Shown: positions 31,335 to 31,985 of the stretch, in pieces
Layout: each line of letters starts with the position of its first letter
How positions within the stretch are numbered: position 1 is the first letter of the stretch
Made by a program: the position numbers and the translations under genes
Notes under the pieces: generated by a model
Told to the model about the DNA's origin: nothing
Database searches by the model: none
The model's input: the letters and a program-made list of their open reading frames with translations, nothing else
Virus record (IMG/VR): IMGVR_UViG_3300031825_000055
Span: 1-31,985 of that record
DNA: 31,985 bases
Strand: one strand, 5' to 3'
Source: a virus

Positions 31335-31985
31335 ATGGCCAAGATCACCAATCTCACCCCCGAGCAGATTGCCCGCCTCAAGGACTGGTCGGAAGACTGG
31401 ATCAAGATCGGACTCTCCACCGAGCCGGCCAACTTCGACAAGGCGATTGAAGCCGCGCTCCAAGCCTACAAGCTCATCAACCGTGACAAGCCGACGATCA
31501 TCCTTCGCATGTCATCGCCATACGGCGCGACCCTTGGAGGCGTCTTAGCCTGGGCGATGCTGCGCGAGCTTGGCGGGTCGCAGGTCAGGTCGCAGGTCGA
31601 GTCGCAGGTCAGGTCGCAGGTCGAGTCGCAGGTCGGGTCGCAGGTCGGGTCGCAGGTCGAGTCGCAGGTCAGGTCGCAGGTCTGGTCGCAGGTCGGGTCG
31701 CAGGTCAGGTCGCAGGTCGGGTCGCAGGTCGGGTCGCAGGTCGGGTCGCAGGTCGGGTCGCAGGTCGGGTCGCAGGTCGGGTCGCAGGTCAGGTCGCAGG
31801 TCGGGTCGCAGGTCAGGTCGCAGGTCGAGTCGCAGGTCGGGTCGCAGGTCGGGTCGCAGGTCGGGTCGCAGGTCGGGTCGCAGGTCGAGTCGCAGGTCTG
31901 GTCGCAGGTCAGGTCGCAGGTCGAGTCGCAGGTCGAGTCGCAGGTCGAGTCGCAGGTCGAGTCGCAGGTCGAGTCGCAGGTCTGG
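31335..31985 (+). CDS. SQVX tetrapeptide-repeat protein, 3'-partial
   Basis: The ATG at 31335 directly follows the previous stop; GAGGG lies upstream. The first 81 residues form a small domain: [42 protein letters not shown], then [30 protein letters not shown]. From there to the window end it consists solely of 34 Ser-Gln-Val-X repeats, X being Gly (14), Glu (10), Arg (7) or Trp (3). The N-terminus (LTPEQxARL...W..IGLST.PA...A..A...Y) resembles, from memory, large phage/actinobacterial proteins annotated DUF6745 that also carry short V-S tetrapeptide arrays; I could not verify that. The frame is open at the edge, so the true end and any C-terminal domain are unseen. Confidence 0.8.
31578..31985 (+). 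repeat. 12-bp tandem coding repeat, 34 units
   Basis: Unit TCGCAGGTC plus a variable codon. The first nine bases are identical in all 34 copies without even a synonymous change; the last codon is only ever GGG, GAG, AGG or TGG, each one substitution from GGG. All units are in frame. The array continues to the window edge. Confidence 0.95.

Follow-up and report, generated by a model that had tools for sequence, protein, structure and literature searches.

The stretch of DNA that we analysed (the window) is an IMG/VR record of 31,985 bases, in which an open reading frame on the plus strand starts with the ATG at 31335 and stays open up to the contig end. It encodes an 81-residue head domain (31335–31577) followed by 34 complete Ser-Gln-Val-X (SQVX) units of 12 bp each (31578–31985), and the record ends inside this array. 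The array was delimited by TRF, by per-position base counts and by comparison with full-length relatives; TRF reported it as the single tandem array of the window, with a period of 12 and 34.1 copies (31574–31982). Together with the open reading frame, this bore out the original prediction of a perfect SQVX array behind an 81-residue head. Each unit reads TCG CAG GTC NNG. Over the 34 units, bases 1–9 and base 12 (G) are invariant, base 10 is G in 24, A in 7 and T in 3, and base 11 is G in 24 and A in 10. The predicted constancy of the unit held but the number did not, since 10 of the 12 bases never vary, not nine. The fourth codon encodes Gly 14 times, Glu 10 times, Arg 7 times and Trp 3 times. 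Runs of like units had also been taken as a sign of recent local duplication, for which the evidence proved weak, with 13 identical neighbours compared with 9.4 in shuffles (p 0.11) and a longest run of 6 (p 0.05).

Inspection of the window units, and likewise of those in relatives, revealed no stop codon in any forward frame. The reading frame of the window array therefore rests on homology. The profile search of residues 1–81 that had been proposed identified a head of the DUF6745 family (match to the family head HMM at 31341–31569, E 3.5e-38), and the head of the window protein shares 86% identity with its counterpart in L022, the closest relative of full length that was found, in which head, array and DUF6745 domain are in frame. 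Because the contig ends inside the array, 34 is a minimum for the unit count of the window protein.

Directly upstream lies a gene for a 148-residue protein (30888–31334, plus strand), whose stop codon abuts the ATG of the array gene, and the two are therefore probably carried on one transcript. The protein has no assigned family: there was no Pfam family at E ≤1, the PHROG matches had E values of 0.0067 and worse, and tblastn of the collected loci matched nothing beyond pieces of the window itself. Before the two genes, a consensus scan found a candidate sigma-70-like promoter (30831–30860, plus strand; TTGACG followed by CATATT or TATTCT), with two overlapping sites where 0.2 were expected in shuffles; such a match to the consensus does not demonstrate function. 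This promoter overlaps an operator-like, palindrome-like 18-mer, ATATGCATCTGCGCATAT (30840–30857), which occurs exactly twice in the window, in opposite orientations and within a 33-nt inverted repeat of 88%. The second copy (30031–30048) lies at the 5' end of a divergent minus-strand gene for a small HTH regulator (29787–30032; HTH_3 33.4 bits, cut-off 23). A CI-like repressor with an HTH and an S24-like domain is encoded at 30102–30737 on the plus strand (phrog_4, transcriptional repressor, E 2.3e-16; Peptidase_S24 21.6 bits, below the cut-off of 23.3). On the minus strand at 28918–29787, genes for an MT-A70-type methyltransferase and a GapR-like DNA-binding protein adjoin this regulatory region. 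With twin 18-bp sites, one of them over the promoter, the layout fits the repressor-controlled early promoter that had been suggested for the array gene, and we infer such control.

The resemblance to DUF6745 proteins that had been noted at first was confirmed for full-length relatives, in which the DUF6745 profile (PF20530, cut-off 27) scored 70.5 bits for L022, 105.5 for L009 and 146.1 for L032; the window contig stops before this domain. A fourth relative, L034, scored 26.9 bits on a shortened translation and 45.5 bits over its whole open frame. A BFVD structure search returned phage DUF6745 proteins, such as one of Microcystis phage LMM01 (E 3.2e-16), and confirmed the family. The window feature is best explained as the N-terminal portion of a phage protein of the DUF6745 family, consisting of a head and a hypervariable array. 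The DUF6745 domain would be expected past the array, probably with a small His-rich gene, the partner, after it. In Pfam, PF20530 is a domain of unknown function that covers only the C-terminal part of these proteins. DUF6745 proteins encoded by phages and by plasmids of Streptomyces, Nocardia, Deinococcus and cyanobacteria share both the head and the C-terminal domain, and many of them likewise hold a tetrapeptide array between the two.

To collect such proteins we scanned IMG/VR with the unit pattern and obtained 23 stretches, three of which (L014, L018 and L024) were unrelated single matches. In 8 of the remaining 20, head, array and conserved C-terminal domain are in frame, and the other 12 are truncated where the sequence stops. 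Searches with the head gave 52 loci and searches with the C-terminal domain gave 75, both with search patterns outside the array. The family is common in phage contigs and extends to assemblies of bacteria and archaea. GenBank and PLSDB records that bear the names of isolates contain arrays as well, those of a Mycobacterium prophage (MW584211) and a Nocardia plasmid (NZ_LN868940). DUF6745 was rare in four sampled phyla at E 0.001 (2 of 299, 4 of 198, 2 of 247 and 2 of 194 genomes, the last three samples including the genome used as centre).

Repeat matches in Pfam, PHROG and NCBIfam (DUF826, YpjP, phrog_22557, ClfA and others) were rejected as low-complexity and under cut-offs where these exist; PADLOC matches of L068, also set aside, lie on its array. 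A phmmer search of PDB sequences with L022 gave four matches, all on the repeat, and the DUF6745 and partner profiles had no match there at E 1. Our search of the literature, with most subscription papers and bioRxiv preprints outside its scope, found no mention of DUF6745, phrog27831 or the motif strings, none of tetrapeptide repeats together with phage and SQV, with hypervariability or with a solenoid, and none naming two or more of STM4012–4015, components of a gene cluster described below. The array, the alphabet of X and the partner gene of DUF6745 proteins are thus not described in the literature and databases that could be searched.

The partner is a small His-rich gene of about 100–155 residues with invariant His residues. 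It belonged to phrog_27831 in three of the four cases tested, and in eight cases no Pfam family scored over its cut-off. We counted distinct full-length loci flanked by 600 bp or more on each side. In 52 of these 54 it adjoins the family gene on the same strand, upstream in 26 and downstream in 26, and the distance between the HMM matches is within 150 bp in 48 and within 725 bp in the rest. The partner HMM had no match in the other two loci, L079 and L088, nor in the window or in five unrelated loci. The gene upstream of the window array is not a partner, and a downstream partner would lie beyond the contig end; the record that contains the nearest relative, L046, has its partner (4446–4793) directly downstream, with 14 bp between HMM matches. 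Further examples are in viral locus L068 (4208–4561, also by HMM), L034 (2689–2994) and L105 (5049–5375). Conversely, a family head, C-terminal domain or array was nearby in 75 of the best 80 of 446 confirmed partner loci, which span at most 2.5 kb on each side and, having been sought with known partners, lean towards close relatives. Partners carry two His-rich motifs, one of them TGHxH-like, stand in either gene order beside DUF6745, and occur in sources as varied as phages, Streptomyces and a Woesearchaeota assembly.

Nine viral members have no array (L073, L078, L079, L089, L161, L164, L172, L182 and L185), and eight of the nine keep the partner, indicating that the array is an add-on to a core of DUF6745 and partner. 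Homologues that lack the repeat while the rest is kept had been named in advance as a finding that would count against the array; they do occur (for example L073, L079, L089, L161, L172 and L185), and we read them as meaning that the array is optional, not that it is an artefact. A partner so tightly linked to the family gene and bearing invariant His residues is what one would look for if the array were a multi-core RiPP-like substrate modified by it, and a radical-SAM cluster adjoins the DUF6745 gene in some hosts. In three of eight plasmid neighbourhoods that we opened (one of the eight without annotation), an array-less DUF6745 gene and its partner stand beside an STM4011–4015-type cluster with radical SAM proteins, a hydrolase, STM4014 and STM4015; two are from Streptomyces and one from Deinococcus (L104, 6374–13366; L105, 1–6513; L106, 1–6519). 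However, the three host proteins beside this cluster are array-less, as are the eight viral members that keep the partner. Since array-less proteins have both kinds of gene beside them, neither the partner nor the radical-SAM set tracks the array, and we consider the RiPP-like reading very unlikely. In the DUF6745 protein from Deinococcus, the position of head and array is occupied by a region of leucine-rich repeats; no Pfam LRR matched it at E 0.01.

We then compared the arrays themselves. Composition and order statistics used 168 stretches or subsets of them, a count in which both pieces of some split arrays appear (for example L196/L208, L063/L132 and L194/L228, the last being halves of one array split by a locus boundary). 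DNA pattern scans favour NGG codons, and claims on alphabet and codons therefore rest on a protein-found subset of 77 deduplicated stretches of at least 8 units, found through the head or the C-terminus. Stretches under 8 units, first units and one member each of near-identical pairs (L082, L281, L145, L033 and L206) were excluded from the counts, and L014, L018, L024, L036 and L037 were excluded from array calling as chance matches. The arrays of L088 and L137 are degenerate, and that of L094 was shortened by the caller.

Array length in the family ranges from none to 70 units (L345, by the array caller). Among the frameworks seen are SQVX, [DA]QVX, [GD]QLX, SSLX, [DA]SVX, [GD]AVX, SAVX, [AD]NVX and GQVX. 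Their DNA is particular to each lineage (TCG CAG GTC, TCT CAA GTA, AGC CAA GTG, AGC AGC CTC, GAT/GCT CAG GTC and others), and the X codons recur on differing frameworks. X codons end in G in 57 of the 77 protein-found stretches (Arg.297, Gly.281, Trp.258, Glu.101), in C or T in 18 (Gly.300, Asp.275, Arg.205, His.073, Tyr.070) and in A in 2. Across the family, X thus falls mostly into the same classes: Gly, plus, minus and aromatic. Glu occurs at X at least twice in all 27 S-type arrays of at least 15 units, compared with 5 of 67 [DA] arrays, in which the residue after X is Asp in 48%. A role of the array at the DNA level, as binding sites or iterons, was set aside because the framework DNA is wholly different between lineages and the residue classes stay constant.

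Several loci showed irregular arrays. L126 (1–1376) is a partial gene in which the array runs in other frames before the usual one, probably through assembly or sequencing error. In L107 (480–1960), from the Nocardia farcinica NCTC 11134 plasmid, the array lies in more than one frame and the annotated CDS starts in mid-array, pointing to decay or sequencing error. L196/L208, L248/L252, L198/L209 and L261/L265 are each single contigs with arrays near both ends, probably circular genomes opened inside the array. Contig IMGVR_UViG_3300025889_000291 carries two separate arrays (L192 and L199) about 3 kb apart, possibly two gene copies.

To see which sites vary, we compared heterozygosity by position within the unit. 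Over the 77 protein-found stretches, the mean was 0.581 at the first base of X (X1) and 0.273 at the second (X2), compared with 0.040 at 143 four-fold framework sites, 118 of which are invariant. Of the remaining positions, the second base of the codon after X stood out (0.297), and all others reached at most 0.068, the value of the nearly fixed third base of X (X3). In all 168 stretches X1 was more diverse than every four-fold framework site, which is a contrast between site classes and not a codon-model test. Neutral homogenisation would affect both kinds of site alike, and X diversity therefore appears to be maintained at the protein level. The Arg codons carry a second signal. Among the 53 protein-found stretches with at least two Arg codons, 26 use AGG only, 27 use CGG only and none is mixed; over all loci (140), 84 are AGG-only, 55 CGG-only and one mixed (L211). 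This argues that units are copied, not re-mutated.

These counts bear on two alternatives. Every X codon of the window is one step from GGG, as originally noted, and this would suit targeted hypermutation of a GGG codon, as in a diversity-generating retroelement. As a description of the window the observation stands, but repeated mutation would mix AGG and CGG within a stretch, and X3 is nearly fixed. The unmixed Arg codons thus speak against ongoing template-directed mutation at the variable codons, the mark of such retroelements, and we regard hypermutation as extremely unlikely. The second alternative is microsatellite-like slippage of the 12-bp unit, or an assembly artefact, with X free of selection. 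A tandem repeat that is stop-free in all forward frames could behave in this way, and contig breaks at arrays are common, 62 of the 168 stretches lying within 15 nt of a contig end. Repeated blocks are longer than in shuffles in 17 of 67 [DA] arrays and 5 of 27 S-type arrays, and tandem or block duplication therefore does contribute. Against this alternative stand the contrast at X1, the recurrence of the same residue classes on unrelated frameworks, such as TCT CAA GTA in Woesearchaeota, and the arrays in the two isolate-named records. It is already disfavoured, and we hold it to be highly improbable.

Our comparisons instead indicate that a few unit types differing at codon X are copied and shuffled, the residue after X differing too in many lineages. 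The framework of each lineage is homogenised along the array, as frequent unit-level recombination would give, and the unit types appear to be kept diverse at the amino-acid level against this homogenisation, which needs selection for diversity. The counts give good support to this evolutionary part: copying, homogenisation, and selection that keeps one or two residues of each unit diverse.

Arrays also differ between close relatives. We compared nine cross-record pairs with flanks at least 95% identical and found that the arrays differ in six. L081 and L082 align over 6,204 columns with zero mismatches and one 12-bp gap. L145/L146 have 2 mismatches and 2 gaps in 5.8 kb, with 26 compared with 29 units, and L028/L033 have different arrays next to a flank that is 100% identical over 2.5 kb. 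In L206/L209 (99.1% over 1.5 kb) the difference lies in the last five units. The arrays of L322/L325 (flanks 98.6% and 95.1%) are unlike, and those of L107/L298, the Nocardia farcinica NCTC 11134 plasmid and IMG/VR record 637000198 (flanks 99.1–99.6%), are quite different, that of L107 being read in several frames. In the other three pairs the arrays agree over their overlap: L013/L026 (6 units), L170/L171 (40) and L208/L217 (15). Differences were also found at flank identities of 90–95%, outside the nine, in L084/L086 (94%, unlike), L195/L264 and L155/L330/L341. Two phages that are 91–93% identical to L155 upstream differ from it in framework (SAVX where L155 has SQVX), and their DNA similarity to it stops about 450 bp before the array.

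The prediction of a protein variable in length and residues is thus supported by the family arrays and by the pairs with near-identical flanks; the proposed comparison of unit order and number among related phages gave differences in six of the nine pairs and agreement over the overlap in three. Arrays appear to change faster than the surrounding DNA. Metagenome arrays, as sources of such differences, may be misassembled, which makes the Nocardia pair L107/L298 the most informative, even with one of its arrays broken in frame. A report on fungal repeats describes such repeats as reconstructible from long reads and not from Illumina-based data (PMC12222747).

The order of X along the array is nearly random. 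Usage in S-type arrays is close to even (Gly.247, Arg.253, Glu.221, Trp.247), with variances over binomial of 3.05, 1.81, 0.96 and 1.76 for Gly, Arg, Glu and Trp, and the six main units of [DA] arrays reach 2.575 of 2.585 bits. Gly is over-dispersed between arrays (chi2/df 3.05 for S-type and 2.28 for [DA]). Identical neighbours show no excess in S-type arrays (ratio 0.99) and are depleted in [DA] arrays (z -3.2); a toy neutral simulation of tandem turnover gave an excess of identical neighbours and loss of letters. A weak period of three units was detected in X (all stretches, z 3.7; protein-found, p.012; S-type, p.009; others, p.006), and a period of four was also nominally enriched (all, p.007). 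The three-unit period could reflect a three-unit coil or block duplication. Array lengths, 8–62 units in the 92 stretches with sequence on both sides, showed no significant modulus, and with 36, 35 and 21 stretches in the classes modulo three, the sign of a three-unit coil is not clear. Pairing of Arg with acidic residues by lag had mixed signs, and the mean net charge per unit is 0.02 (sd 0.12) in S-type arrays and -0.20 (sd 0.14) in [DA] arrays.

A solenoid had been suggested for the array. For two array types AlphaFold modelled head and C-terminal domain with confidence and drew the array as helical-looking at pLDDT of about 40 (blocks 33–48), so that the models contain predicted helices and no confident coil. 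Foldseek of the L068 model against PDB gave nothing below E 0.76, and VIA-align gave nothing at Z ≥5. Of the 1,958 units in the protein-found stretches, 96% have Val at position 4, where the caller allowed V, L, I, M and F, and 29% have Gly at X; Pro was never seen at X, Z or position 4 and occurs 5 times at position 3. Gly at X and the preference for Val over Leu at position 4 would suit an extended or beta-like repeat more than a plain helix, which is not proof. Together with the weak period of three these features are only compatible with a beta-solenoid, and a beta-solenoid-like fold is inferred with less support than the recognition surface considered below.

The near-random order leads to the main rival of a recognition function, in which the array serves as a spacer or low-complexity linker controlled by its composition. 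Only its length and overall mix would matter, for solubility, condensation or display, with near-neutral charge, some aromatic residues and some Gly, and its order would carry no information. The absence of a significant length modulus, the mean charge per unit, the low pLDDT and the members without an array all agree with such a linker. A mere mix, however, leaves the order differences between near-identical phages unexplained, as it does the depletion of identical neighbours in [DA] arrays, and Val in 96% of units at position 4 is what an ordered core would show. We consider a linker governed by composition somewhat unlikely.

The reading that we favour, and whose chance of being right we judge to be about even, is a rewritten, diversity-selected recognition array in a DUF6745 protein, evolving like fungal HIC repeats. 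In such a protein the array would form an exposed modular recognition surface, on which residue X, being uncharged, positive, negative or aromatic, would set binding. The array would be rewritten in an arms race or in a self/non-self setting, as in fungal HIC-repeat NLR sensors, and the conserved DUF6745 domain with its partner would carry out the effect. A recognition function is suggested by analogy, with the HIC repeats of fungal NLR sensors and with the single DUF6745 protein that bears leucine-rich repeats. The helix drawn by AlphaFold, the array-less members, the near-random order of X and the three of nine pairs with the same array are points against it. A bolder form, tentative and in our view rather unlikely, sees the array as a text in protein, with up to about 70 letters drawn near maximum entropy from an alphabet of four letters (G/R/E/W) or six units. 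Each 12-bp cassette would hold one letter and be exchanged by recombination, and the conserved two-protein DUF6745/His-rich module would read the text as a programmable recognition array or identity tag, much as a minimal digital version of TALE or HIC sensor arrays.

Whichever reading holds, the DUF6745 gene and its tightly linked partner make a defined, testable module that is widespread in phage contigs. If the order of X sets specificity, the array would offer a very simple code for binder design and would show a way for phages to diversify a recognition surface that needs no retroelement. If the order is irrelevant, it would be a clean natural case of selection on amino-acid composition alone.

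Finally, we compared the array with known repeat systems. To the Ser-Asp repeat regions of MSCRAMM proteins the likeness is that of a low-complexity Ser-rich repeat, seen as weak NCBIfam matches on L022 and L009; the best of these reached 29.2 bits (L022), far below the cut-offs, which are 1150 bits for ClfA and range from 999 to 2500 bits, and adhesin domains were not found. TALE repeats are DNA-binding units of about 34 residues with two adjacent variable residues. Such modular arrays have in common with the phage array a constant framework, a specificity-type position in each unit and a small alphabet, whereas homology was not found and nucleic-acid binding by the phage array is without support here. 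To our knowledge, the phage unit is the shortest hypervariable repeat unit known, in which one codon in four varies and nearly all else is homogenised down to synonymous bases.

The closest likeness is to the HIC (high internal conservation) WD40 repeats of the fungal NLRs het-d and het-e. The report on these describes near-identical units under concerted evolution, with a few hypervariable codons per unit under diversifying selection, length polymorphism and difficult short-read assembly (PMC12222747). The SQVX-type arrays share near-identical units, few hypervariable codons, length variation and the assembly difficulty. Within the window gene the near-identity is that of 10 invariant bases of 12 in 34 units, and for diversifying selection the parallel is the excess at X1 in 168 of 168 stretches, by site classes and not by a codon model. 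Pfam searches of L022, L009, L032 and L034 gave no match to NACHT or WD40, nor to the superstructure-forming repeats ANK, TPR, HEAT and LRR. The phage arrays differ from HIC repeats in having units of 4 residues that are not WD40, a limited residue alphabet at the one or two positions that vary, and a phage-borne setting.
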